From a virus, in IMG/VR virus record IMGVR_UViG_3300038825_000808, positions 1 through 42,459 of that record: a DNA stretch of 42,459 bases; one strand, written 5' to 3'. The position numbers were made by a program, and so were the translations under genes. The first letter of the stretch is position 1. Every line of letters begins with the position of its first letter. Positions 1,191 to 38,047 of this stretch are shown piece after piece. The notes beneath the pieces are model-generated. The model had not been told where the DNA came from. It ran no database searches and saw nothing but the letters and a program-made list of their open reading frames with translations.

Positions 1191-1385
1191 TTATTTACCT
1201 AGTAACTTCTTTGCTTCAGTTACAAATTCTTTCCATTCTTCTTGTGTTACTTTGTCGTCTTCCCACATCTTAGTGAAAACATCAACAGTTTTCTTTAGTT
1301 GCTGGTATTTATTTTTGAATAAATATCCTGCTACTGTAAGAGCACCTGATAGTAACCAAGGAATATATTCTGATATTGCTTCCAT
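1191..1385 (-). CDS. Small membrane protein, possible holin partner
   Basis: The 64-aa protein has one N-terminal membrane segment (about residues 7-23, IPWLLSGALTVAGYLF) followed by a Lys-rich amphipathic helix (24-64). The upstream 2680-aa gene ends in an embedded AGGAGG and a TAATG overlap, so translation is probably coupled. One membrane segment with a charged cytoplasmic tail is common among small phage holin or antiholin proteins, but nothing here is diagnostic. Confidence 0.65.
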   Translation of the reverse strand: MEAISEYIPWLLSGALTVAGYLFKNKYQQLKKTVDVFTKMWEDDKVTQEEWKEFVTEAKKLLGK

Positions 1386-4300
1386 TAGTTTGACCTCCTT
1401 TCTTTAGGATTAAATAGTGGACCCATAATCTTATCAACTTCATCTTCTTTATCAAAGTATGGGTAAGTTTTATGCATATAGTCTGGTGTATTTTTCTTCT
1501 TGTATTCTCTTTTAATTATACTAAAATCAATGTCTGCTTCTCTAGCTAAAGCCATAGCTTTACCCATTTCTCCTGCGTCCATATAATCAAAGATATCTTT
1601 GTATACCCATTTTCTATCTCTACCTCTAGATTTAGAAGCATCTAGCATAGCAAACTTTAAAGTCTGGTACCTGGCTTCATCCATAGGTTGAAACCCTGCA
1701 AGTTTGTATATTAAATTAAGAGTTGGACTACCACTCATTTCATCTACATTAAAAGTTAATCCACCATTATATGTGTTTCTTAACTGTCCTGTAGTAGCCA
1801 TGTCATATCCTTGTTTTAAGTTTTGTACAAATCTAGGTAATGCGTAGTTTAATGCAGCATCTGTTCTACCTTCTCTAAAAGCTGCAGCAGCTTTTATTAA
1901 TCTAGCAGGATATATACCAAACAAGTTATTTGTATCTATTACAGTAAATAAGTTACCAGGTCCTGTCCTTCCTTCCATGCTAACACCACCTAAAGTAAAG
2001 AACCCACCTGCTAATACATCTTGTAGTGGAGAATCTTGTTCATACATCCATGCTTTAGGGGACACACCAAATGCCCATCTAGTAGCCATGTCTAGTTCTT
2101 GAGCTCCAGGTAAAGAGAATATACCTCCAAGTGCTGTAAATGCTCCTACTATCTTAGCTGCATTTCCATATCTTTCTGCCATAGGTACACCAGAGTAAGT
2201 AGGTACTTCTCTAAATGCATCTACAAAGAATGTAATCTCTTTTTGTACCCATGTTTTAAATTGTAAGAATGGTTTGGTAACAGGATTACTAAAAGCTAAT
2301 GGGTTATTAAATGAGTTATATGTGTGGTTTGTTTGTTCCATAAAATCTACAGCATAATCATCAATCAATCTTTTAACATCTTTGTTTGCTAGTTTACCTG
2401 TCATGTCTGTGTTGTTAGCTTTACCACGTAACCACATAAGCTGTTCATCTTGAGTTAGATATTTCTTGTAGTTACTACTGTCTATATCAAAGTTTTTAAG
2501 TTTACCTCTAAGTTTTTTAAGTATGTTCTTACCATTTTCTACTCCTACTACAAGAGTAAACATTCTAGACCTAGTATCAGAGTCTTGGAATAACCACATA
2601 GCCCAGTCATTTAATTTTCTAAAAGCTTGTCTGGTAGGTCCAGCTTTTCTTATACCACCTGCATTAAGAATATCTTGAACTGCACCATCTTGTTTAAATA
2701 TTTCTAGGTTAGCTTTCTTAAATGCATCATAGTACTTGCTAGTTTTCTCATTTATTCTAGCAGCATGTTTCATAGCTTTCATAAGAATAGTACCACTGTT
2801 ACTATCAAAAGCTAATCTTGGTAACACGTTAAGTCCAACAATAGTATACTGTAGTAAAGCTGTAGCTACATTAGCACCTAAAGCTACAAAAGAAGATGTT
2901 CTTTGTATCATGTTACTTAAGGTTCTAAGGTTACCACTACCCTGGTATATGCCCATACGTTCTAGACCTTGAGCAATAGCAGGAACTTTGTAAGCATAAT
3001 CTAACAAGTTGTTAATTACACTATCCATTGTCTGTTCTGTAGGACCTTTTTTACCTATTAACATATTATGGTAATCAGTCATGTAATTGTACAAATCTCT
3101 TTGTATGTCTTTTTTTAGATTTACTTGTATTTCTTTAATACTTGCAGTTAAAGGTAATACATGAGCTGCTTTACTAGTGTTATACCAATAACTAGCCAAC
3201 AGTTCTTCTAAAGTTTTGTAAGGAGTTAATTGGTTAACTCCATCTCCTCTATGTTTAGCAGCTCTTGCTAGGAAATCAACTATGTTGTCTCCTGCTGTAA
3301 GTTTTTCTTTACCAAACAAATACTTTTGTACATCTCCTAGTGCATATTTATAACTTTTATCTACAGCTTTAGCCATTTCTTCTGTAGTTATTTCACTTAA
3401 GTTTCTACCTGTAGGTACAATATGAATATACCAATCATTAGGATTCTCTAAGTATTGTTTATTATTAGAATCTTTTAAAAATCTTCGTAGTTCTTTTTGT
3501 ACTGCTTCTTTATTAGCAGTATTAGCTGTTCCAATATTAACATGTCTGCTACCTTTTTGTAATATAACTTTAAAATTACCATCAGCTATTCTAGGAAAAT
3601 ACCCTACTAAGTGCCCTATTCTTTTAGGTAAATCTTCAGGGGCTATTTTTGCTCCCTTTTCAAGCTTATGCATTAAATCATTTGTAAGCAAATCATTATA
3701 ACGTGTAGTTCTTATATTATCTATGCTCTTGTAAAAACTTCTAGCAACCTCTCTTGATTCTGCACTAGATAATCTGTTAGCTAATTCTGTAGTTAATATT
3801 TGTTCTTCTTTGTATTTAATTATTTGTAACTGAGCATCTAATGCTCTTTCTACTTCTGCATCAGTTAAACCTCTTTTTCTCATAGACTCTTCTATACTAG
3901 TTAATTTATACCTACTACCATTCTTACCTGAACGACTATTTTCTAGTACATAGTCTATGTCTCTAAGTGTGTTTAAAATATGTTCTTCTTCTGTTGCCCA
4001 CTTTTTATTAGGAAATGCCTCTTGCCATGCAGTAATTGATTTATTTATTTCTGATGTAGACATCCAATCTGAGAACTCTTTAGGTATAACAGATACTCTG
4101 TTTACATAATCTCTAGCTGTATCTATTAAGTCTATAAATCTAATATCTCCTAAAACTTGATAAGCTTTTTTAAATATTTTAGCTGGGTCTCCATAAAAAT
4201 GTTTTTTAATAAAAGGAATATTAATAGGGTCAGCAGGTTGAGGTGAAAGATTAGTTCCAGCAGGTCCATCTTTACTACCAGCAGCTCTTCCTACTTCGTC

Positions 4301-7300
4301 TATAGGACTAGTGCTTCCAGCTTCTTGAGCACCTGCCTCAACATAATCATCTCCTAATTTAATTCTAGGATTAGGATAATCAAACATAAAGTTTAAGTGA
4401 TGAACTCTCATGTTAGTAAGAATAGGCTCATTAGCAATAGTATCTAATATATAATGTTTAGCTAGATTATCTCCGTTAGCATACCTGTTTAACCAATACA
4501 GTTTGTCTATAGCTTGTCCTCTTAACATGTGTCTGTCTACAAAAGATTCCCACACGTGAGGATTATCTGACATAAGTTGCCACCAAGATTTATATACTCC
4601 TGCAGTTTCTAGACGTTTACTCCTAGCATCTTTAAATCCACCTGCTTCTATTTGTGCAAGTCTTTCTTTAAATTTAAGTCCAGCTTGTCCTGGAGTTTGC
4701 TGTCCCATTAAAGGTAGTTGAGCTACTTCCCTAGTTCCAATTCTAGCTCCTTCTGCATTCTTTACAAGCTCAGTACCAGGTCTAAACCCCATACCTACAT
4801 CCCAGTTTTCTAGTAACTCAGAATTGTCTGTTATCCAGTCAAGCATTTTTGTTCTAACAAAATCTCTTTGTACTCGGTTTGTTTGAATAGTTTTCATTAC
4901 AGATTCAAAGTCATCTCCAAATTCTGTAGTCATTGTTTTTTTATTTTGAAAATAGTCACTAACTACATCTCTCCATTCTGCTGCATCTTGAGTTCTCATT
5001 GCTTTTTCTAAGTTAGTACCACCTTGAGTAGTGTCAGATACTATGTAGTTATTTAACATTCCATATTCTTTAGTTATAAAAGCTCTGGCAGATTTAATAT
5101 ATTCATCTTTGAAAGAATCTTCTATTTGTTTTACAAACAATTCTACGTCTGAATCTTTTATTAAACCAGAATCTACTTTAAGAAAATCAGCTATAGCATT
5201 TAACTCATCTAGTTTCATCATACCACTATTAACATAGCCATTGTCTTTTAATGTTTTAACTATCTGGTAGGCTTCTTCTATTAGTGCATTTTGTTCTGCA
5301 GTATCCTTTCCTACAATATTATCTAAGTTCTCAGCATAAGCTTTCAGTAACTTTTTCATTTCTAGTATGTCAGTAGGATTGTAAGCAGACACTCCTAGTT
5401 TGTTAGCTTCACCTGCTTTCTCTACGTCTATTAATAATTCATCTAGTTTACGTCTAGCTATGTTAGGATAATCAACATCTCTAGGAAGTTTTAGAGGATT
5501 AATACCTCGTTTTTCTAAAGCTACTTCAACAATCTCTATTAAATCTCTTGATTGTAAGTTACCAACTTTGTAAGTTTCTATAGCATTTTGTATGGTATCA
5601 GCTAGTTGGTTTACAAAGTTATGAGTTAGAGGTATGTTGTTTACTTTAAAGTCATTACTAGCTTTTGTCCAGGTTTCTGCATCTACAGTATCATCTAGTA
5701 ACTTACCTATTCTAGTTTCAATATAATCTAAGTTGTCTATTTCTTTACCACCAGTAGACCTCTTAAGTCGTTTACCTCCAGATATATTTTCTATAGCAGG
5801 TCCTACATCTAGTCCTGCAGCCTGAGCTGCAGTTCCTGTAGGATTAACCTTCTTAAGTTTACTTGCATTTCTATCAATTAAGTATTTAATGTAATCTGTT
5901 ACAGAAGTTCTAGCATCTAACAATACATATTTAGTAGCTCCTGGGGTTGAAAGTACCTGTTTGTCACTTAACTCTTTTATAACAAGCAGTCCATCTTTAC
6001 CATATTGTATACCCTCTTTTGTTATACGTGCTTTAGGTACAAGTTGTTTTACTTTAGGTAGTAAATAGTCTGTTGCTTCTTGTAAACTTACAAAAGGTAC
6101 TGAGTTATACTGTACATTTAACATATACTCTAACTGGTCTGCAGCTGCGTGTGCATTAGAAGATAACTTCATAGGAGTAATTCTTCCAGCCAGAGGAGTT
6201 CCAGCTAACCTTACTGCACCTTTTACTGGTTTATTTAATACTGTTCTTTGTACAGGTTCTTTAGTTACAGAAACAGTAAAATCATCTAAGTCAAAACTCA
6301 TTTGTCCATCATTTATATCTTTGATTAAATCATCATAGAAACTTGAGATTCTAGCTAAACTATCTGGTTCACTATCAAGTATTTCCTTAGACACTGTAGG
6401 GTCAATTACTTCTCCTGTATCTATACCCTCATCTGCTTGACGTGCAAGTATTGCATCTGCTTCTTCTTTAATTACATCAGAACCTACTTCAGGAGTTGTA
6501 TCATAGTAAGCATCTGGTGAGTAGTTTTTCTCATACATTTTAATGTATCTGTCTGACTCTCTAAGTGCTTTATATTCAGATGTGTATATTTGTTCTTTTA
6601 ATTCTACTGCTGCTTTAGCTAATTGTGTATCTGTCATCTTAGGATTATTCTTTTTTAAGTATGCAATAATATTGTTGTCTGTAAACGTAGCTTTAAAGTT
6701 ATCTATTTTTTGTTGTTGTATCTTAAGATGTTCTGCAAACTCAGCATTTACATCTAGTTCCATTTTTCTAGACGGAGGAATCTTTGTAATTTTCTTTCCT
6801 CCAGTTAATAAATATTCTAACTTTAATTGTTGTGCTGTTTTTGTTGGTTGAGGTTTAGGTAACTCTAATGTATTAATTAACTTAGTAACTAAATTATTAT
6901 AATTTCTAACAGGTATAATTTCTTTTAAATCTAAAACACGTCTAGCTACTACAGGATTCATTCTAGATAATACAGTTTCATTAGCTAATGATACAGCAGT
7001 TTCTAAACTTCTTATTACAGTAACAGGTATTTCTTCCATACTTGTTTCTATTACTGGTTTTACATTTCTAAACTTAGGTAACTTTAGTAATCTAGTTAAG
7101 GTTTCAGCTTGATTAACTGTGCCTGGTTTAGCAAAACTATCTTTAAGGTTAGCTCTATTTTTGGTTACTAAAGTTTTTAAATCTTTTACTAATGTAGGAT
7201 TTTCTTGTATCCATTTGGACCACAGTTTATCATATTCTTTTTGTAAGTTTAGTTTTTTATTCTTAGGAGGTTTACCTTTACCTTCTTTTATACTCTTGTA

Positions 7301-9427
7301 TCCTTTAATATCTACTTGATATACTTCTTCAATACTTCTACCATCTTTAAATTTTGCGTTCAAAGCAGAAAATTGTTTACTAAATTTAGTTCCTCTAGTG
7401 CTTACTTCTAAAACTGTAGCTTTAGTTTGTTTACTTAAAATCTTAGCTACCTGTTCTTCAGCTTGTTCTATAACCTTAGCACTTCTATTATCTATTTTAT
7501 TTATTAGTTTTTTTACAGTAGATAATCCATTAACTAAATCTATACTAACTGTTCTTAAACTACTTTTACCTGGCAATGGTTCTATAGTTGTTTCTCCAGC
7601 CTTTGTAACTCTAGTTCCCCCACCAGCAATTGTTATATCATATGATTCTTTAACACCACGAGAATTCATGCGCTCTACTTGTCTAGTCATGCTTACATCT
7701 AGTATTGTACTAGCTTCTTGTAAATCTTTTAGAGTTTCATATGTTCTGGTGTTAACACGCACACTTGATTGACGCATCTCTTGTTCTAAGAAGTTATAGT
7801 AACTACCAGGTTTATCAGATGCTTTTGGTGCAGAATAGAATTGTTTAATATAAGGTATAGCTGGTCTGTCTATACTAGCTGCTTGATTTATATTTAATTG
7901 ATTTCTAGGTCCGTATATTCTACTACCTAAAGGAGTTCTTACTTTAAATTTTCTTGGTTTAGTTAATTTAATTTTTTTAACATCTTCAGATATATACTTA
8001 GGATTAAAATCAAAATAAGGATTACCTAATACAACTTCATCTCCACCTAAATCTAGCTTTAGTTGTTCTCCTTTCTTTGCAACAGCTTCACCTGCTACAG
8101 CTACTTGAGCTATTTCTTTGTCACTAAATGTAGATTCTTCTTTAGCTAACTCTTGTACTTTTTTGTTTCTTCTTAATTTAGATTTAAAGTTTCTAGCTAA
8201 CTTACCTATCTTTTCTTCTATGTTAATATCAGTAATTTTTTTAATACCTTCTATAGTTTCTCTAGCTTTAGTTTCTAAATCTTTAGTCTTATCTGGTTTT
8301 ATAAATTGTTCAACCTCTTGGGCAACTTTAAGGTTTTCTTCAAATCTTTCTACTGTTTCTAGTGCTCCGTCTTTTAAAACTTTATGTCCTTTTTTGTTTA
8401 CAGCATCATAAAAGATTTTACCTTCTAGTTCTTTAGGAGTTAATCTCATTATAGCTTCTATGAATCCATCTGTATTTTTATTAGCAGAATCTAAAGACTG
8501 ATTATACTTTAGTATTACACTTTTTAGTTTATCCATTTGCTTTTGAGCAAATTCTATTTCTTTAGGACCTACTCCTTCAGGTATAGTAGGTTCATCTAAT
8601 ATGGTATCTTCAGCTGTCTTAGCTGCTGTAGACACATCATAGTCATCCTTACTTACATCATCTAGTTTTGCTGTCTTTGGGTTAGCGTCACTACCTTTAG
8701 TTCTATTTTTATTCTTATATCTACCTGCTACTCTAGACACCCCTGCAGCTAATCCTTCTCCAACAGCTGTATACAGTAAAGCATCTTGATAGCCTGATAG
8801 CCCACCTAATTCAGCATCAGCTAAGTTCCACAATCCTGCTTCCATAGCTACTCTGATACCATGGTCTAGTTTATTTTTGTTAGCTAGTATTTTTCTTAGA
8901 GCAGGAGCTCCTTGCATAGTATCATTAACCATATTAAAAGGTCCTTTAGAATTTAAGTTGAATGGTTTAGACTTACCAACAGTTACTCCAGATGCTCCAG
9001 ATATTCTAGGGACTATCTTACCTCCTTTACCTACCATGTAAGCATCATCAGCAAAACCAAGTCTACCTACTAAACTTCCAGCAGTACCTGCAGATACTCT
9101 GTTCATGGTAACCAAAGGTATTAAAGCCCCTACAAGATAACTCAACCCATCTAAAGAAGCATACGTTGCAGGTTTCTCTCCTGCATGGTGCATGCTTAAT
9201 CCTGACAGAAATGATTGTCCTAGATTATTACCTACTACTGCATTAGTCTCATCAAAGTTAATAGGCTTATAGTTAGCAGATATAAAGTAATCAACAGGAT
9301 TAAATCCAGGAGCTACATTTATATAGTCTTTGGTTGTAAATGTTCTCTTGTCTTCTGGAGCCAAAAACTCATCTATATCAAATAACTTTTCTTCTTCTTC
9401 TACAACTTCTACTTTAGGGTCAGCCAT
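1385..9427 (-). CDS. Giant virion protein, putative DNA-ejection/internal core protein (2680 aa)
   Basis: At 8.0 kb this is 19% of the genome. It is the last of four genes whose order and rising size resemble T7 gp13-14-15-16, so I infer an internal core or ejection protein; T7 gp16 is about 1318 aa, half this size. The N-terminus is acidic. A hydrophobic Gly/Ala-rich region lies at about 90-240. A segment at about 664-785 has the pattern FSALNAKFKDGRSIEEVYQ, then GKGKPP and a Trp-rich part, resembling a small stand-alone phage protein I recall seeing elsewhere. The middle is long, charged and helical. The C-terminal third has amphipathic and hydrophobic helices (about 2200-2450) including TKPFLQFKTWVQKEITFF, typical of large polyvalent phage proteins. 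I saw no lytic transglycosylase or peptidase motif. Start ATG 9427 follows AGGAGT and overlaps the previous stop (TAATG). Confidence 0.85.
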   Translation of the reverse strand: MADPKVEVVEEEEKLFDIDEFLAPEDKRTFTTKDYINVAPGFNPVDYFISANYKPINFDETNAVVGNNLGQSFLSGLSMHHAGEKPATYASLDGLSYLVGALIPLVTMNRVSAGTAGSLVGRLGFADDAYMVGKGGKIVPRISGASGVTVGKSKPFNLNSKGPFNMVNDTMQGAPALRKILANKNKLDHGIRVAMEAGLWNLADAELGGLSGYQDALLYTAVGEGLAAGVSRVAGRYKNKNRTKGSDANPKTAKLDDVSKDDYDVSTAAKTAEDTILDEPTIPEGVGPKEIEFAQKQMDKLKSVILKYNQSLDSANKNTDGFIEAIMRLTPKELEGKIFYDAVNKKGHKVLKDGALETVERFEENLKVAQEVEQFIKPDKTKDLETKARETIEGIKKITDINIEEKIGKLARNFKSKLRRNKKVQELAKEESTFSDKEIAQVAVAGEAVAKKGEQLKLDLGGDEVVLGNPYFDFNPKYISEDVKKIKLTKPRKFKVRTPLGSRIYGPRNQLNINQAASIDRPAIPYIKQFYSAPKASDKPGSYYNFLEQEMRQSSVRVNTRTYETLKDLQEASTILDVSMTRQVERMNSRGVKESYDITIAGGGTRVTKAGETTIEPLPGKSSLRTVSIDLVNGLSTVKKLINKIDNRSAKVIEQAEEQVAKILSKQTKATVLEVSTRGTKFSKQFSALNAKFKDGRSIEEVYQVDIKGYKSIKEGKGKPPKNKKLNLQKEYDKLWSKWIQENPTLVKDLKTLVTKNRANLKDSFAKPGTVNQAETLTRLLKLPKFRNVKPVIETSMEEIPVTVIRSLETAVSLANETVLSRMNPVVARRVLDLKEIIPVRNYNNLVTKLINTLELPKPQPTKTAQQLKLEYLLTGGKKITKIPPSRKMELDVNAEFAEHLKIQQQKIDNFKATFTDNNIIAYLKKNNPKMTDTQLAKAAVELKEQIYTSEYKALRESDRYIKMYEKNYSPDAYYDTTPEVGSDVIKEEADAILARQADEGIDTGEVIDPTVSKEILDSEPDSLARISSFYDDLIKDINDGQMSFDLDDFTVSVTKEPVQRTVLNKPVKGAVRLAGTPLAGRITPMKLSSNAHAAADQLEYMLNVQYNSVPFVSLQEATDYLLPKVKQLVPKARITKEGIQYGKDGLLVIKELSDKQVLSTPGATKYVLLDARTSVTDYIKYLIDRNASKLKKVNPTGTAAQAAGLDVGPAIENISGGKRLKRSTGGKEIDNLDYIETRIGKLLDDTVDAETWTKASNDFKVNNIPLTHNFVNQLADTIQNAIETYKVGNLQSRDLIEIVEVALEKRGINPLKLPRDVDYPNIARRKLDELLIDVEKAGEANKLGVSAYNPTDILEMKKLLKAYAENLDNIVGKDTAEQNALIEEAYQIVKTLKDNGYVNSGMMKLDELNAIADFLKVDSGLIKDSDVELFVKQIEDSFKDEYIKSARAFITKEYGMLNNYIVSDTTQGGTNLEKAMRTQDAAEWRDVVSDYFQNKKTMTTEFGDDFESVMKTIQTNRVQRDFVRTKMLDWITDNSELLENWDVGMGFRPGTELVKNAEGARIGTREVAQLPLMGQQTPGQAGLKFKERLAQIEAGGFKDARSKRLETAGVYKSWWQLMSDNPHVWESFVDRHMLRGQAIDKLYWLNRYANGDNLAKHYILDTIANEPILTNMRVHHLNFMFDYPNPRIKLGDDYVEAGAQEAGSTSPIDEVGRAAGSKDGPAGTNLSPQPADPINIPFIKKHFYGDPAKIFKKAYQVLGDIRFIDLIDTARDYVNRVSVIPKEFSDWMSTSEINKSITAWQEAFPNKKWATEEEHILNTLRDIDYVLENSRSGKNGSRYKLTSIEESMRKRGLTDAEVERALDAQLQIIKYKEEQILTTELANRLSSAESREVARSFYKSIDNIRTTRYNDLLTNDLMHKLEKGAKIAPEDLPKRIGHLVGYFPRIADGNFKVILQKGSRHVNIGTANTANKEAVQKELRRFLKDSNNKQYLENPNDWYIHIVPTGRNLSEITTEEMAKAVDKSYKYALGDVQKYLFGKEKLTAGDNIVDFLARAAKHRGDGVNQLTPYKTLEELLASYWYNTSKAAHVLPLTASIKEIQVNLKKDIQRDLYNYMTDYHNMLIGKKGPTEQTMDSVINNLLDYAYKVPAIAQGLERMGIYQGSGNLRTLSNMIQRTSSFVALGANVATALLQYTIVGLNVLPRLAFDSNSGTILMKAMKHAARINEKTSKYYDAFKKANLEIFKQDGAVQDILNAGGIRKAGPTRQAFRKLNDWAMWLFQDSDTRSRMFTLVVGVENGKNILKKLRGKLKNFDIDSSNYKKYLTQDEQLMWLRGKANNTDMTGKLANKDVKRLIDDYAVDFMEQTNHTYNSFNNPLAFSNPVTKPFLQFKTWVQKEITFFVDAFREVPTYSGVPMAERYGNAAKIVGAFTALGGIFSLPGAQELDMATRWAFGVSPKAWMYEQDSPLQDVLAGGFFTLGGVSMEGRTGPGNLFTVIDTNNLFGIYPARLIKAAAAFREGRTDAALNYALPRFVQNLKQGYDMATTGQLRNTYNGGLTFNVDEMSGSPTLNLIYKLAGFQPMDEARYQTLKFAMLDASKSRGRDRKWVYKDIFDYMDAGEMGKAMALAREADIDFSIIKREYKKKNTPDYMHKTYPYFDKEDEVDKIMGPLFNPKERRSN

Positions 9428-29432: not shown

Positions 29433-29687
29433 ATGAGTAACCCAAAAACTACAGACATCAATGATTCTGTTACTACAGAGTCTGATAGTCCAAGTACCAA
29501 GGAAGAAAGCTCTGACTTTACTGATTGGCTAGACCAAGAGGTAGACAAGCTGCAAGTTCCAGACAATGTCACTGATGTATCTACTGCTGTTCAGTATATG
29601 ACAAGTGGCAAGAAGGAAGAAAGACGTCAACGTATGGTGCGTTTGATAGACAAACTATTACAGGAGGTAAAGCGTAATGATAAGTAA
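29433..29687 (+). CDS. Acidic 84-aa protein upstream of the AAA+ gene
   Basis: A Ser/Thr/Asp/Glu-rich, probably disordered N-terminus (1-28) is followed by helices DWLDQEVDKLQVP and a basic C-terminal helix KKEERRQRMVRLIDKLLQEVKR. No family is recognised. It overlaps the AAA+ gene by 11 nt and supplies its AGGAGG site, so it is co-expressed and may be an adaptor or regulator of that ATPase (inference). Its start context (AGGAGGT..TACTATGAGTAA) repeats that of the previous gene. Confidence 0.7.
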   Translation: MSNPKTTDINDSVTTESDSPSTKEESSDFTDWLDQEVDKLQVPDNVTDVSTAVQYMTSGKKEERRQRMVRLIDKLLQEVKRNDK

Positions 29688-30762
29688 ACAGATTGCACTA
29701 GATGCACTCAAGCTACAGCAACAAGTTGGACTTGAGGATGCTAAGGTCCCTGTGCTAGTAGGTAAGACTAGCTCAGGCAAAACCTACTGGATTCAGAATG
29801 AACTCAGTAAAGAACTTGACTTACCTGTAGTTAAGATACTACTACAAAACGAGACAGCAGACGAGGTGCTAGGCTTTCCTAAGTATCTAGCTAGTACCAA
29901 TGAGCTAACATATCTCAAGCCAGCATGGTGGTCAGATACACCTAGCATCTTTTTCTTTGACGAGCTAGACAAATCAAGAGACGAGTTGCATGCAAGTATC
30001 TTGACTCTGATGCGTGAAGGTACTGTGCGTGGTAGACCATTGCCTAAGGGCAGCGTAATCATTGCAGCTATGAACGAGGCAGACCATCTATCTGACCCAC
30101 TCAAAGCTAGGTCTCTGTTTCTACCATTTGAATATCAAGACAGAAACTGTAGTCTTAATGATGTAGCTGGTTACCTACAAGATAAGTGGACACTAGCCCC
30201 CGTACTACCACAACCTAGTGAGTGTATGGAGAATGTACATTACCTGGAGAAACTACAAACAGTCAGACCTACACTGTCACAAGAATCTGCTGTACTACAT
30301 CAAGTATGCATTGGCTTGTTTCCAGCTGATGTTATACCTAGCATCATGGATATCATGACAGGTAATCAAGAGCTTGACTATCCAAGACTACTAGATAATA
30401 AAGAAACCTTTGACAACTTTATACATACACAACGTAGTGTAGACCAAGCAGCTAAACATATTGTTGAGTTTGTTAAGGTAGGTAGAAGTGAGCGTCATGC
30501 TAACAGAGTTGTTAAGTTGTATGAGAAGTTTGCTAGTACAAATGCTGATGACCTTGTCCGAATTTACAGTAAGGTTCATGACATTTTGTTTGACAACTAC
30601 CCTAACCTAGCTAGACATGACTTCAGTGTAGACTTTGTTAAAGAACTAGGTGTACGTTTACGTAACATGTTAACACACTACACTAACAAAGTAGATGAGC
30701 TTGCTTATTCTTGGGAGGTAGAATCAGATGACGAATCCAGACTACAAAGCGCTGACGTATAG
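29677..30762 (+). CDS. MoxR-type AAA+ ATPase
   Basis: The 361-aa protein carries Walker A GKTSSGKT (29-36), a MoxR-like segment VLGFPKYL after it, Walker B IFFFDELDK (91-99), sensor-1 Asn in AAMNEAD (about 133) and an Arg-finger-like DPLKARSL (about 141-148). Gln/Asp-rich helical lid sequences follow. MoxR/CobS/RavA-type ATPases form hexamers that remodel partner proteins, usually with a VWA-domain partner encoded nearby; here that partner is two genes downstream. Phage homologues are often labelled CobS, but no cobalamin gene is present. The target is unknown. Confidence 0.85.
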   Translation: MISKQIALDALKLQQQVGLEDAKVPVLVGKTSSGKTYWIQNELSKELDLPVVKILLQNETADEVLGFPKYLASTNELTYLKPAWWSDTPSIFFFDELDKSRDELHASILTLMREGTVRGRPLPKGSVIIAAMNEADHLSDPLKARSLFLPFEYQDRNCSLNDVAGYLQDKWTLAPVLPQPSECMENVHYLEKLQTVRPTLSQESAVLHQVCIGLFPADVIPSIMDIMTGNQELDYPRLLDNKETFDNFIHTQRSVDQAAKHIVEFVKVGRSERHANRVVKLYEKFASTNADDLVRIYSKVHDILFDNYPNLARHDFSVDFVKELGVRLRNMLTHYTNKVDELAYSWEVESDDESRLQSADV

Positions 30763-31642
30763 TTATCTAGACACAAAGAGTTCAGACTACAGCTACATGA
30801 TGAACAGGTACAAAGACTTTAAAATACCATACGTTAAACCTACATCTGTAGCAACTAGGTACATGGTAGACAATGCTCACATTAGATACTATGGTAATGC
30901 AGCTAATGACTACAAAGATACTTTATATGTAGATTCTTATTGTACTCCTGATGAAGCAGAACGTACAGCTAGGCAGAATCTACAAGACCGTAAAGATAGA
31001 GCTTTTGTACGTGTTAAGTCAGGCGTTACAGTAGGTGACGAGAAGGTACCTAGATACAGCCCAACTAGAGAGGCTGTATTTGGTACACATTATGACTCAG
31101 TTAAACGTGAAGCTGAGTTCTGTATATACTTTAAACCAGAGAAAATACAACATGATGATGTACAGTGTGTGCTAGGTATGAAGATATTAGACAACACTAC
31201 AAGTTATGCTGGTAACAGACCGTATCATTCTAAACTTAGTGTGCCTCATCACAGACATCCTCAAACAAGAGATACCATTATGTCTGTTGTATACATATCA
31301 AGGCAAGATGGTAAGTTATGTTGTGACTCTTACCTTCTGTATTGTGAAGAGACTAAGCTGTTGTTTCCTGAACAACTCAAGCATACCAGTCTAAGAAATG
31401 ACGTTGCTTGGTCAGAACAGAACATAATCAACTCACTTAAAACTCACGTAGACATGAGTAATCTAAGTTTGTTTGATGCAGTCAGACGTAAGAAAGCATT
31501 CCTTTGGTTTGTACCTAGTACTAAGTGGGATACAGCAGAGACTATGCATGAGTTTACACATGCTCACAAATCAACATACAAAAAGCCAAACAGTATATCT
31601 ACGTGGCGTAAGCGTAGAGCTATGGCAAGGAGGACACGATGA
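30728..31642 (+). CDS. Unknown protein between AAA+ and VWA genes (304 aa)
   Basis: The start ATG 30728 has GGGAGG about 9 nt upstream within the AAA+ gene and overlaps it by 35 nt. The N-terminus is Tyr-rich (YSYLDTKSSDYSYMMNRY). Two cysteines sit in CCDSYLLYC-like context near 200-207. The C-terminus is strongly basic (STWRKRRAMARRTR). No known fold was recognised. Overlaps on both sides (35 nt and 4 nt) tie its expression to the ATPase and VWA proteins, so it is probably a third component or the substrate of that complex. Confidence 0.75.
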   Translation: MTNPDYKALTYSYLDTKSSDYSYMMNRYKDFKIPYVKPTSVATRYMVDNAHIRYYGNAANDYKDTLYVDSYCTPDEAERTARQNLQDRKDRAFVRVKSGVTVGDEKVPRYSPTREAVFGTHYDSVKREAEFCIYFKPEKIQHDDVQCVLGMKILDNTTSYAGNRPYHSKLSVPHHRHPQTRDTIMSVVYISRQDGKLCCDSYLLYCEETKLLFPEQLKHTSLRNDVAWSEQNIINSLKTHVDMSNLSLFDAVRRKKAFLWFVPSTKWDTAETMHEFTHAHKSTYKKPNSISTWRKRRAMARRTR

Positions 31643-32838
31643 TAAACATTAACATACATGAATACATATCATTTGACAATGATAAGTGGTTGATGTATCA
31701 AGTGCCAGACATTAACTTCTGGACTGATACTAAGACTAAAGGTTCAGCTTACTGTTATGCAGAACACGGTAAGCTAAATATATTTATCTCATCAGACTGG
31801 TTGAATCACAGGTCTAATGAGTTTAAGATAGAGCTAGTTAAACACGAGCTAGCTCATGGTATGTTTGGTCACATTGGCTTCATGAAAGGCAAGACGAAAG
31901 CCCAACGTCAGCTCTTTAATATTGTAGCAGACTGCAGTATACATGTCAACACTGCTGACCCTAAGATACTAGAAGAAGGTACAGGTGGTAAACCCTGTAC
32001 CTATGATAACTGTGGACTCAAACAACTTCCACCTGAGTATCTTTATCACAAGCTATGGGATGCAGCTCAAGACAAGATGGATAAGTTTCAAGCATGGGTA
32101 GATGAACACTTAGATGATGACTTCTGGAAAAGAAAACCTAATAAAGACGCAGACTTAGATAGTCAAATCATTAAAGATTCTATCTGTAACAATCTAGAAA
32201 AAGCAATAGCTAAAGGTGTACCTATACCTAATACAGTACCAGGTGGTGTAGGTGGTGCAGCTAGTACAACAGACTTAGACTATGACTATCTGTTTAATCA
32301 ACCTGTGCCTAAAGAACCATGGTTGTCAGACCTAGAACAGATTGTTAGAAACTACAACAGTAAACATGTTACATCTAGTTACAAACGTGAGCCACGTAAT
32401 CCTATACATCCTGACATTTTACAGAAAGGTAGGGCTACAACGTTTCCTAAATCTAGATTCTTATTTGCTGTAGACTGTTCAGGTAGTATGGATATCAAAT
32501 TGATAGAACGTGCTATCTCTACGATATCACAACACATAGACCCTGGTGAAAATAAGTTACTTATCTTTGACACCAAGGTATCTAAAGTCTTTGACATTAC
32601 AGACACAGATACTATCAAGCAAGCTTTACGTAAATACTACGGTGGTACACATCTACTCCCAGTGTTTGAGTATGCTAATGCAAATGACCAGCTAGTATTT
32701 TATACAGATGGTGGCTTCTGGGATATGGATAATATACATCTAGCTAGTAAGTTTAAATACAAACCTGTATTTATCTTGACAGAGTCTTGGTATCACGATA
32801 GTATATCCAAGCATGCACATGTTATAACAACTTATTGA
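31639..32838 (+). CDS. Metallopeptidase-like + VWA domain protein (DUF2201-like)
   Basis: In the 399-aa protein, the N-terminal half has HELAH (69-73) with a further His78, then FNIVADCSIHV (93-103), the pattern of the putative metallopeptidase domain that precedes VWA-like domains (DUF2201 family, by recall). The C-terminal VWA has a complete metal-binding MIDAS: DCSGS (279-283), T337 in GGTH and D357 in YTDGG. This is the expected partner of the MoxR ATPase upstream. Whether HELAH is catalytic or only structural is unknown. A 24-nt hairpin overlaps its stop codon. Confidence 0.85.
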   Translation: MININIHEYISFDNDKWLMYQVPDINFWTDTKTKGSAYCYAEHGKLNIFISSDWLNHRSNEFKIELVKHELAHGMFGHIGFMKGKTKAQRQLFNIVADCSIHVNTADPKILEEGTGGKPCTYDNCGLKQLPPEYLYHKLWDAAQDKMDKFQAWVDEHLDDDFWKRKPNKDADLDSQIIKDSICNNLEKAIAKGVPIPNTVPGGVGGAASTTDLDYDYLFNQPVPKEPWLSDLEQIVRNYNSKHVTSSYKREPRNPIHPDILQKGRATTFPKSRFLFAVDCSGSMDIKLIERAISTISQHIDPGENKLLIFDTKVSKVFDITDTDTIKQALRKYYGGTHLLPVFEYANANDQLVFYTDGGFWDMDNIHLASKFKYKPVFILTESWYHDSISKHAHVITTY

Positions 32839-32887: not shown

Positions 32888-33961
32888 GTGGAGAATACTT
32901 ATCTAAATCTATTTACATTTCTGTTAGATAAAGCTAGGCGTGACCAAGTTGCACCCATGCTACAGTCTATATACCTGGAGTATCCGTATGACATACTATG
33001 GGAAGAGTTAAAGAAAGAGAAAGAGACTTTAACTAAGACGGACTTTCTAAGTATTGTTAAAGATACCCTAACTGCTGATGAGTACATGTTCTTCAAGACC
33101 ATGGAAGATACAGTCAGTAATGTAACTGGATACAGAGCTATCAATACTCTGTTAACTAACAACAAGATACACAAGATATCTAACATCATACAATCTGATG
33201 AACCATTAGATGATAAGTTGTCCAAGATATCTAACGTGTCTACTAACACAATACAATATGGTGCAAGTAAATCTAAACTATTCTCTGATATGGAGATGAC
33301 AGAGACTAATGACTTGTTCTATTTGTTTCATTATGGTTTAACTAAAGAAGAACTTGCTGTGATATGTGCATTTACTGGACGTGGTAAAACTAGTATCATG
33401 TTATCATTTGTAAGAGATGCATGTCTAAACAAACTAAAAGTATTATACATATCTATCAAAGACTTTAGTGAGACCATGCTACGTAAGAGATTACTTGCAG
33501 TAGAACAGTTTCCTGATTTCTATGCATGTTGTTACTCTGACTTTAGTACTACACAATTAGAAGTAGAAATTGATACAATCAAACCAGACATAGTATTTTT
33601 AGATTACTTAGGAGTTATGTCATCTATGAAAAAAGCTGATGCAAGAAGACATGAGCTTGAGAACATTACGTCTGAACTAAAACGTATAGCTCAAGATAAA
33701 AATATAATTATTGTAACAGCTCATCAACTAAACAAGGATGACCCGTTTCCTAGTGCAGACAATCTACTAGAAGCTAAGGCTGGTATTATATCACATGCTG
33801 ACTTAGTACTAGGTGTAGGTGGTGACATCAACACAGGATACAGGAACGTAACTACTATCAAAGCTAGGAGACATCCAGCATTGCAAGAGTTTCTAATTAA
33901 CTTTGACTTTAATCAGTTAACGTATGACTACGAAGAATATAAGGAGGAAGATAATGGGTAA
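32888..33961 (+). CDS. DnaB-like replicative helicase (RecA fold)
   Basis: The start is GTG 32888, with GGGAGG 7 nt upstream. The 357-aa product carries Walker A AFTGRGKTS (161-169), Walker B DIVFLDYLG (234-242) and a motif IIVTAHQLNKD (274-284) like DnaB motif 3, with a basic IKARRHP further on. The N-terminal 140 residues are helical and may hold the primase-interaction domain. It is smaller than DnaB (about 470 aa) and is separate from the primase, unlike the T7 gp4 fusion. It should unwind DNA ahead of the polymerase. Confidence 0.85.
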   Translation: MENTYLNLFTFLLDKARRDQVAPMLQSIYLEYPYDILWEELKKEKETLTKTDFLSIVKDTLTADEYMFFKTMEDTVSNVTGYRAINTLLTNNKIHKISNIIQSDEPLDDKLSKISNVSTNTIQYGASKSKLFSDMEMTETNDLFYLFHYGLTKEELAVICAFTGRGKTSIMLSFVRDACLNKLKVLYISIKDFSETMLRKRLLAVEQFPDFYACCYSDFSTTQLEVEIDTIKPDIVFLDYLGVMSSMKKADARRHELENITSELKRIAQDKNIIIVTAHQLNKDDPFPSADNLLEAKAGIISHADLVLGVGGDINTGYRNVTTIKARRHPALQEFLINFDFNQLTYDYEEYKEEDNG

Positions 33962-35653: not shown

Positions 35654-35931
35654 TGGGATATTACAAAAACTTAGCAATTGAACAGGAGGAAGACAAGAAA
35701 GAAGTCATGACATATTATATAGAGAAGGTGACTAAAGAAATCTTAACAGGCTTAGAGTTAGATAAGAAAACTACAGCTGCTTCCTTAACACTAGCTTCTC
35801 AGTTAATTATACAAAGAATATTACAGAGAAATTTAGATGAATTGTTCAGAGTTATCATGGAGGAGAAAGATGCTAACGAGAACTTACACAGAAAGAAAGA
35901 AGAAATACAAGAGCCTACAACTAACAGATAA
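35653..35931 (+). CDS. Small helical protein upstream of DNA polymerase (92 aa)
   Basis: ATG 35653 shares one base with the primase stop (TAATG). The protein is charged and helical throughout (EQEEDKKEVMTYYIEKVTKE, LASQLIIQRILQRNLDELF). Its 3' end overlaps the polymerase gene by 62 nt and supplies that gene's GGAGGAG ribosome site. No family is recognised. It may be a polymerase or primase accessory. Confidence 0.65.
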   Translation: MGYYKNLAIEQEEDKKEVMTYYIEKVTKEILTGLELDKKTTAASLTLASQLIIQRILQRNLDELFRVIMEEKDANENLHRKKEEIQEPTTNR

Positions 35932-38047
35932 CTGTCTTAGATGTGGACTCTTTGAACATGCTGCTTCCCCTAAGTTACTATGTAAACAACTGCAAGATGG
36001 ACAGCGTGGTAGGGTGCTAATAGTATTAGGCACACCATCTCAAGCAGAAGACTTACGTAAAGAACTAGGGGGAGATGCTACAGGTAGCACAGTTAAGAAG
36101 TATATGAAACAATACTTACAAGATTGTGCAGTATGGATAACATGTCCTGTTAAATGCTACCCTAAAGATTATGAAGTTAAGACTCATGAAGTACGTTGGT
36201 GTAGTAGTTTATTAAAAGAAGAAATAGATAAGATAAAACCTAATAAAGTTATAGCCATGGGAGACCTAGCAAGGATGGCATGTAAAGAGATTGACCAAGA
36301 GTACGAATCTAGCATTCATCCTAAACAACTTAAAGACAAGGCATTAGACAGAACTATTATAGAATCATATAGTAGAACTGGAGCTGAGTGTAGAGATGAG
36401 CTAGAAGAAATACCTGTACATCCTAGCTTTGATGAAGTATTAGAAGAAGCTACTAAAGAAGGTTACATTGGATTAGACTTTGAATGGAACATAGACACTG
36501 ATGTAACTCACACAATAGGAATAAGTAGCAAGACTAAATGTGCAGCTGTACCCTTAGAATTTGAAATGCGTGCATTATTAAGAGAACGTATATGTAAAAA
36601 TCCTTTACTTACTGTAGTAGGGCACAACATAGTATCAGACGTAACAAGAATACTTAGAATAGTAGGAGCTGATTATATACAATGTAAGTTTATGGACACA
36701 CTTATATTAAAAAGACAACTAGCACCGCATCTACCTGTAGGTGGTCTAAAGTTCTTTGCTCACAACTACCTCCACCTAGTTGATTATGCAAAAGAAATTA
36801 CCATAGATGACTTCGCACAAACCACGAAGAAACTACAAGACTACTGTGCAGGTGATGCGTATGCTGGGTTACAACTATACTATATGTTTAAACAAGATTA
36901 CCCAGAGTACTGGAGAATAATGACTCTAGCTAGAGACATAGACATGCAGATGATATTACCTGTAGCTCAAATGATACATCAAGGTATTAAAGTAGACATG
37001 GATAAGCTTAAAGAATATACAAAACATAATAACAAAGAGCTAGATAAAGTTCTTACAAAAATAAACAAAACATATGATATAAATCCTAGTAGTCCTGTTC
37101 AAGTAAAAGAAACATTGCAGTCTCTAGGGTATGACGTAGATGGTACAGGTGAAAGTATACTCAAAGGTATTAACCATGAGTTTGCTTCTGATGTATTACA
37201 ATACAGAAAGTATAATAAATTAAACACTACATACACTACAAAGATTCCAGAGCTAGTAGGTAAGTCAGGTAGATTGCACTGTAACCTACAACTAGCATCA
37301 ACAACCACAGGCAGGATGACAAGTACCAACCCTAACATGCAAAACATTCCTCCTGGTGTTCGACCATGTTTCAAATCTATATTTGATGAGGAAGGTACAC
37401 TCCTGACTGTGGATGCTAGTCAATCAGAACTTAGATGTCTAGCTTACTTAAGTGGTAGTAAGTATCTAATAGATGCATACAACAAAGGTAGTGACATGCA
37501 CACATTAACTAGTGAGCTTGCTGGTATTACTCGTAAGAATGCAAAGATACTAAACTTTGCATATGTGTACGGTGCAACAGAGCAACGTTTATCTAGTGAG
37601 CTAGTCAAAGCAGGATTGTCTAGAACTAAAGCAAGAACAACAACACGTACATATCTAGATGTTATGTCTAAAATAGGTATTGCAGATTATCAAAAAAAGT
37701 TGTTGACTTCTGCTAAGAAGATAGGCTATACTAGTAGTGTATATGGGAGGATTGGAGATAGAATGAACCCTACACAAGTAGTTAATTTTCCAATACAATC
37801 ATTTAGTGCAGACTTAAACAAGATACGTATATTAGAAATGCATAACTTGTTAAGACAGCACAAGTGTATATCTAGACTATGGTTAGAGTTTCATGATGCT
37901 ATGGAACTAGATGTATATAAACCAGAATTAGAGTTAGTGTATAATCTAATTAAACAAGTAGATACACGCATACCTGATATTAATAACTCAGGTATTGTGT
38001 TAGACTTACCATTAGATATTAAAGAACACGGACCTAACTGGAATTAA
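35870..38047 (+). CDS. polA: UDG-like domain - DEDDy exonuclease - family A DNA polymerase fusion
   Basis: ATG 35870 (MLTRTYTERKKK, 725 aa) follows GGAGGAG. Residues about 20-130 resemble Fe-S uracil-DNA glycosylase (family 4): C22-x2-C25, C38, then WITCPVKCYP (C92, C96), HEVRWC and IKPNKVIAMGDLA. The usual GEAPG active-site loop is LGTPSQ, so activity is doubtful. The 3'-5' exonuclease is intact: D203-x-E205, D257 in GHNIVSD, Y325/D329. In the polymerase, motif A is D515ASQSELR and motif B R555KNAKILNFAYVYG, with Phe563 at the site equivalent to E. coli Phe762. Motif C is H675-D676-Ala677 where HDE is usual. SPO1-type phages also carry UDG-like N-termini on polymerases. Confidence 0.92.
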   Translation: MLTRTYTERKKKYKSLQLTDNCLRCGLFEHAASPKLLCKQLQDGQRGRVLIVLGTPSQAEDLRKELGGDATGSTVKKYMKQYLQDCAVWITCPVKCYPKDYEVKTHEVRWCSSLLKEEIDKIKPNKVIAMGDLARMACKEIDQEYESSIHPKQLKDKALDRTIIESYSRTGAECRDELEEIPVHPSFDEVLEEATKEGYIGLDFEWNIDTDVTHTIGISSKTKCAAVPLEFEMRALLRERICKNPLLTVVGHNIVSDVTRILRIVGADYIQCKFMDTLILKRQLAPHLPVGGLKFFAHNYLHLVDYAKEITIDDFAQTTKKLQDYCAGDAYAGLQLYYMFKQDYPEYWRIMTLARDIDMQMILPVAQMIHQGIKVDMDKLKEYTKHNNKELDKVLTKINKTYDINPSSPVQVKETLQSLGYDVDGTGESILKGINHEFASDVLQYRKYNKLNTTYTTKIPELVGKSGRLHCNLQLASTTTGRMTSTNPNMQNIPPGVRPCFKSIFDEEGTLLTVDASQSELRCLAYLSGSKYLIDAYNKGSDMHTLTSELAGITRKNAKILNFAYVYGATEQRLSSELVKAGLSRTKARTTTRTYLDVMSKIGIADYQKKLLTSAKKIGYTSSVYGRIGDRMNPTQVVNFPIQSFSADLNKIRILEMHNLLRQHKCISRLWLEFHDAMELDVYKPELELVYNLIKQVDTRIPDINNSGIVLDLPLDIKEHGPNWN

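Follow-up and report, generated by a model that had tools for sequence, protein, structure and literature searches.

The 42,459-nt stretch of the virus record IMGVR_UViG_3300038825_000808 that was analysed here (positions 1-42,459 of an uncultivated bacterial virus, hereafter the window) carries three overlapping genes on its plus strand, encoding an AAA+ ATPase, a middle protein that we refer to as the orphan, and a DUF2201-type protein in which a zincin-like domain is joined to a VWA domain. That three overlapping genes lie at 29677-32838 had been the original prediction, and open reading frames indeed occupy these positions. The AAA+ ATPase, of the phage N4 gp24 type (361 aa, 29677..30762), was identified with Pfam and PHROG profiles and hhalign; the lineage-specific orphan (304 aa, 30728..31642) through homologues in the contigs L001, L006 and L036; and the DUF2201-type protein, of the N4 gp25 type (399 aa, 31639..32838), through PHROG 1314, PF09967, alignments and Foldseek. 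The AAA and orphan genes overlap by 35 nt, and the orphan and VWA genes by 4 nt (ATGA). As read from the sequence, each gene has a strong Shine-Dalgarno of its own, namely AGGAGG for the AAA gene (29662..29667), GGGAGGT for the orphan, lying within the AAA gene (30713..30719), and AAGGAGG for the VWA gene, lying within the orphan gene (31627..31633). In comparisons of the window with two relatives, the proportion of nonsynonymous differences (pN) is well below that of synonymous ones (pS) for all compared genes, which indicates that the cassette genes are real; only the direction of pN/pS was used, synonymous divergence (dS) being near saturation for the more distant relative. The AAA-VWA pair is already known, being homologous to N4 gp24/gp25; what is new is the middle protein, and its joint absence with the pair from a sister genome.

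The AAA+ protein matches PF00004 (1.7e-4) and PHROG 1297 (2.8e-11) in profile searches, and a profile of the window clade aligns with the other phage AAAs over the AAA core (hhalign probability 97.9, E 6.4e-13). The intact Walker and sensor residues that had been claimed were all recovered by alignment: Walker A (GKTSSGKT, residues 29-36, 29761..29784), Walker B (FFFDE, residues 92-96, 29950..29964) and sensor-1 N133. G34, G66 and D95 do not vary across the 15 rows of this alignment, in which K35, N133 and R145 are nearly invariant too. Furthermore, the segment after the Walker A helix aligns, at the level of primary sequence only, with an L-x-x-x-x-P-x-D-L-x-G-x-P stretch of the other phage AAAs, and is a candidate for the helix-2 insert. 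Among solved structures, the phage AAA profile matches midasin/Rea1 best, and the window-clade profile alone gave nothing at E 0.05 against PDB sequences. Only AAA, AAA_2 and AAA_5 match the window protein in Pfam, and the MoxR model AAA_3 does not. As such, the earlier label 'MoxR-type' stands at the level of the AAA_5/MoxR/midasin superclade, but not for the MoxR family proper as judged by AAA_3.

In the third protein, an N-terminal zincin-like domain is followed by a C-terminal VWA domain. PHROG 1314 covers residues 42-383 (5.5e-29), and PF09967, the DUF2201 VWA-like domain, is matched at 3.4e-7 (30.9 bits against a cut-off of 26.4); the metallopeptidase-like domain DUF2201_N (PF13203) is not matched in Pfam, where a SprT-like match is weak (0.0043). 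Both the HELAH motif and the full MIDAS of the original prediction were found, and both are invariant in nine phage homologues. The putative zinc site HELAHGMFGH (residues 69-78, 31843..31872) contributes the invariant H69, E70, H73 and H78, and the complete MIDAS (D279-S281-S283/T337/D357) comprises loop 1 DCSGS (residues 279-283, 32473..32487), T337 (32647-32649) and D357 (32707-32709). In the homologue of L036 (L036:7866-9062), DCSWS replaces DCSGS, with the metal-binding D and both S kept. Given the unmatched PF13203, the span of PHROG 1314 and the conserved HExxHx4H, the protein represents a divergent branch. Its AlphaFold model (mean pLDDT 57, about 77 for the N-terminal part) matched VWA domains in Foldseek, with NorD at rank 20, which supports the VWA domain only; no zincin match was obtained for the N-terminal part in a PDB search. 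PHROG 1314 and RefSeq call the family 'HNH endonuclease', a name given to the window protein, N4 gp25, LUZ7 gp39 and many RefSeq records. What Pfam recognises in such proteins is a VWA domain and a metallopeptidase-like one, with no HNH match, and the label, although widely copied, seems to be wrong.

The orphan is basic (pI 9.3), and the basic C-terminal tail that had been pointed out in this 304-aa protein proved to be conserved in its homologues. Family members measure 278-323 aa, have a pI of 9.3-9.7 and share the core DxQC...SVxYIxRxxG...CxETxLxFPE...HT, within which E208 and E215 are invariant in four sequences; we predict these two residues as candidate contacts of the VWA-protein MIDAS. 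Searches of Pfam, PHROG, NCBIfam, PADLOC and PDB placed the orphan in no family, the four family members finding no Pfam match even at E up to 10 and solved structures offering nothing credible. No relatives were found among 50,697 phage records, nor in one genome-contig scan, and a profile of the family found nothing in 15 named phage genomes picked for having the VWA gene. Direct IMG/VR scans with the orphan returned one or two contigs each, and a scan with the AAA pair gave the fourth member. Judged by these searches, the orphan represents a new, lineage-specific protein family that is confined to a few related phages and occurs there only alongside the AAA-VWA pair.

Among other IMG/VR contigs of uncultivated phages, identity to the window orphan is 54% in L001, 31% in L006 and 33% in L036, and a fifth, incomplete copy occurs in L035. 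All four loci that could be read through (window, L001, L006 and L036) have the order AAA, orphan, VWA, DnaB-like helicase; in the window the helicase gene (32888..33961) starts 49 nt past the VWA gene, and is context rather than a proven part of the cassette. The contig that holds the L006 locus, IMGVR_UViG_3300030060_002972 (L006, L133, L134; G001), is 83.7 kb long and is made up of two phage genomes of ~42 kb each, related to one another and lying end to end. Its two copies of each of several genes resemble those of the window to different degrees, with identities of 99% and 86% for the major capsid proteins, 92% and 79% for the terminases, 72% and 47% for the polymerases, and 77% and 47% for the helicases. 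The AAA, orphan and VWA genes, however, are each single-copy. Upstream of the second helicase only small open reading frames are present, and none of the three cassette profiles scored better than E 0.1. The sister genome thus lacks all three cassette genes while keeping the major capsid protein, terminase, helicase and polymerase, from which it follows that the three genes were gained or lost as a unit, and that this type of phage is viable without them. This joint gain or loss is suggestive, coming from one sister genome in a record that is likely a chimeric or joined assembly. That each of its two genomes measures ~42 kb also suggests a nearly complete genome for the window, which is 42 kb as well. 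That the orphan belongs with the pair, as first proposed, is borne out by its slot in the four loci, the incomplete copy and the shared absence.

The pair itself reaches much further. A search with N4 gp25 returned 642 phage records, the majority from Schitoviridae and the others including rV5-like and jumbo phages. Both gp24 and gp25 are among 17 conserved Schitoviridae proteins (Wittmann et al., PMC7650795), and in N4 they are middle-transcribed genes (Chan et al., PMC4193335). The passages on them in these two papers state no function for either protein, the main text of CRISPRi-ART gives no result for them, and we found no paper that assigns a function to the AAA-DUF2201 pair. As in the N4-type arrangement, the AAA gene of the window precedes the VWA gene at close distance and in the same orientation, with the orphan gene between. 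In N4 the homologous genes for the AAA and zincin-VWA proteins share this order and strand and lie near replication genes, but the window proteins are only 14-21% identical to gp24/gp25, and N4 has a 168-bp gap between the pair where the window has an overlapping third gene. A middle gene is likewise absent from RHph_Y2_6, FBKp27, V21, GAP32, SD-2_S15, L009, L015 and L040. It is present but unrelated to the orphan in LUZ7, LIT1, nACB1, Possum, TM29, V2275, PA5oct and L014, 14 middle proteins from these phages showing no homology to it. The loci of LUZ7 (gp37-gp38-gp39) and LIT1 (gp33-gp34-gp35) resemble the window in having AAA, one gene, VWA and then a helicase gene, but their middle proteins are only 153 and 172 aa, and the helicase is SF1-type. 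Vibrio phage 2.275.O encodes, between AAA and VWA, a protein of 503 aa (L028:1890-3401) that is homing endonuclease-like by eye. The upstream gene of rV5-like phages, annotated as an anti-sigma factor, has no Pfam match and was not shown to be an AAA partner. As for whether the orphan is missing wherever the pair occurs, a possibility raised at the outset, it is retained inside the lineage, but none of the other pair-bearing phages in the sample has it, which means that the pair can generally do without the orphan.

Bacterial loci, sampled as the best 80 of >560 relatives from a genome scan for the DUF2201 family (L048-L127) and biased to Acidobacteria and Burkholderiaceae, provide a second point of comparison. 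A DUF3150-like protein of ~300 aa lies exactly between AAA and VWA in 55 of the 71 loci with an upstream AAA; in 14 the VWA gene follows directly, and in two the genes are spaced apart with no middle gene recognised between them. The commonest bacterial and plasmid layout in this biased sample is therefore AAA / DUF3150-like / DUF2201-VWA. It shares with the window the number and order of genes, overlaps of 1-4 nt and a middle protein of ~300 aa; in L053, for instance, the genes (3041-4036, 4036-4980, 4977-6161) overlap by 1 and 4 nt. The DUF3150-like protein also matches 37 plasmids, 16 of which are predicted to be conjugative, and genes that by eye resemble conjugation ATPases (TrbB/VirB11, VirB4) lie downstream of the Burkholderiaceae cassettes. 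Among phages, contig L014 and cyanophage MinM2 have a DUF3150 gene between the pair, plus extra small genes, and cyanophage Pag-Yong1 is also listed with an AAA - DUF3150-like - DUF2201 cassette. A search for the term DUF3150 found no paper naming it. Where the bacterial cassettes differ from that of the window is in the middle protein, which on present evidence belongs to another family.

What could such a cassette do? In NorQ-NorD, the VWA protein NorD plugs the pore of the NorQ ring with a finger, and its MIDAS grips acidic residues of the target (PMC9976466), while the MIDAS of Rea1 grips E80 of Ytm1 and E114 of Rsa4 (PMC6624252). The cellular MoxR-VWA chaperones (NorQ-NorD, RavA-ViaA, CbbQ-CbbO) have in common with the window an AAA ring protein and a VWA protein with a MIDAS, and NorD is among the Foldseek matches mentioned above. 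They differ in that the phage has no respiratory, Rubisco or metal-insertion target, that DUF2201 adds an N-terminal HExxH domain, and that AAA_3 is unmatched. Rea1/midasin shares the AAA match and the MIDAS-driven extraction of assembly factors, but is a single giant eukaryotic polypeptide that acts in ribosome assembly. The idea of a MoxR/VWA-type chaperone pair is therefore upheld, but RavA-ViaA, CobS-CobT and NorQ-NorD, which had been named as its kin, give way to N4 gp24/gp25 and the bacterial and plasmid AAA-DUF3150-DUF2201 cassettes as the nearest relatives.

On balance we lean towards the cassette being a three-subunit, ATP-driven protein-remodelling machine of a ~42-kb tailed phage, with the orphan as adaptor or substrate. 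The AAA+ protein would form a ring, on which, by analogy with NorQD and Rea1, the DUF2201 protein would dock, its MIDAS metal gripping an acidic residue of the target. The zincin-like domain would bind metal, and may either cleave the target or just hold on to it. The orphan would be the third subunit, whether as the target or as an adaptor that leads the machine to it, and its basic tail may contact nucleic acid, phage DNA replication being the most likely site of action. Speaking for this reading are the motifs and the homology of the pair to N4 gp24/gp25, the midasin match, the constant slot of the orphan and its shared absence with the pair, the three-gene layout in bacteria, the helicase neighbours and the mechanisms described for NorQD and Rea1. 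Several points weigh against it. N4 and most of the other phages sampled have the pair but not the orphan, and the joint absence rests on a single sister genome. Structure prediction, which had been put forward as a check, gave VWA matches for the third protein, but the orphan model (pLDDT 31) was discarded and no fold was obtained. In N4, and at the homologous locus of the Rhizobium phage Y2_6, dCTP deaminase genes rather than a helicase follow the VWA gene.

The helicase neighbours invite a more specific proposal, namely that the AAA and VWA proteins, bridged by the orphan, act on the neighbouring DnaB-like helicase, which they would load onto the phage DNA or remodel there. The helicase gene is immediately downstream in all four complete loci, the orphan is basic, and an SF1-type helicase, unrelated to the DnaB-like form of the window, lies near the VWA gene in LUZ7, nACB1, FBKp27, Possum, 12VC501 and L015, several of the Schitoviridae thus having a helicase there as well. 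Yet the sister genome lacks the cassette but still has a helicase (47% identity), in N4 and certain other phages no helicase stands beside the pair, and adjacency within a replication operon is weak evidence, so that we regard a helicase loader as a rather unlikely outcome. The basic tail and the helicase neighbours of two unrelated kinds do point to nucleic-acid processing, but weakly, given that the sister genome manages replication in the absence of the cassette and that in N4 the pair has no helicase beside it.

Could the orphan instead be a passenger of this lineage, a gene unrelated to the working AAA-VWA pair into which it was inserted? It is the fastest-evolving and least constrained of the compared genes, and other phages have unrelated genes or none in its place, the homing endonuclease-like protein of Vibrio phage 2.275.O included. 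A passenger would, however, hardly be expected to keep its place between AAA and VWA throughout the four loci down to about 31-33% identity, to overlap both neighbours in the window, or to be absent together with the pair, and bacteria hold a conserved protein of ~300 aa in the same slot; we consider it unlikely. Less probable still is a DUF3150 origin of the orphan, followed by divergence too great for it to be recognised, which would make the cassette a phage copy of the bacterial system. Slot, size (278-323 aa against a DUF3150-like median of 311 aa) and the 4-nt overlap with the VWA gene agree, but profile comparison gives a probability of 0.1% (hhalign, E 0.4) and hmmsearch E 0.5, whereas the middle protein of phage contig L014 scores 4e-76 with the same profile. 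The pI (9.3-9.7 against a median of 5.9) and crude residue propensities differ as well, and on sequence the assignment to DUF3150 was rejected.

A counter-defence device, as the original prediction had also entertained, would be directed against bacterial AAA/VWA immunity. MoxR-vWA-VMAP/iSTAND ternary systems, proposed as bacterial conflict systems (PMC7159879), share with the window the three-component logic of MoxR, vWA and a third protein. They differ in that the third protein of the window has no VMAP or iSTAND domain (no Pfam match for four members, E up to 10), that no effector follows the VWA domain, which reaches the C-terminus of the 399-aa protein, and that the cassette lies in a phage replication region. 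Even with the cassette being accessory, as its absence from the sister genome implies, counter-defence is very improbable and found no support, the orphan and VWA protein having no informative PADLOC match, the AAA only one of 12.8 bits, the genes sitting with those of replication, and the pair being part of the core gene set in Schitoviridae (PMC7650795). Membership of a defence system was likewise without PADLOC support.

Elsewhere in the window, the possibility that the whole phage is N4-like was rejected on the terminase, the major capsid protein and a 2680-aa protein. The terminase is unrelated to that of N4, and the helicase is DnaB-like; the terminase resembles that of KBNP1711-type phages (27% over 43% of its length), and the major capsid protein is about 30% identical to those of Vibrio and Streptomyces phages. 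The 2680-aa protein, of a giant virion type (1385-9427, minus strand), matches only two small or weak PHROGs, neither with an assigned function, and is not recognised as the N4 RNA polymerase, no PHROG named as RNA polymerase being matched. In a DNA polymerase A (35837-38047), an N-terminal stretch ahead of the exonuclease domain (residues 65-164) matches the uracil-DNA glycosylase superfamily PF03167 at E 6e-4, a score short of the curated cut-off. Upstream of the cassette, an open reading frame for an acidic protein of 84 aa (29433..29687, plus strand) overlaps the start of the AAA gene by 11 nt. It is the first in the overlapping run, its membership of the cassette is uncertain, and with PHROG 30245 (E 0.0068) as sole PHROG match no function is assigned.

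Beyond the three-subunit machine that we favour, a bolder and less likely reading is that mobile elements keep the AAA+/zincin-VWA motor and swap the middle protein (DUF3150, the orphan family, small proteins or none) in order to re-aim it, here at a phage replication complex, with the orphan founding a new family of third subunits. The AAA-DUF2201 pair, which occurs on plasmids too, is part of the core genes of a large phage family. If the middle gene is an exchangeable aiming part, phages that carry DUF3150, the orphan family or none would reveal the target of the motor, and the sister genome without the three genes provides a natural comparison.

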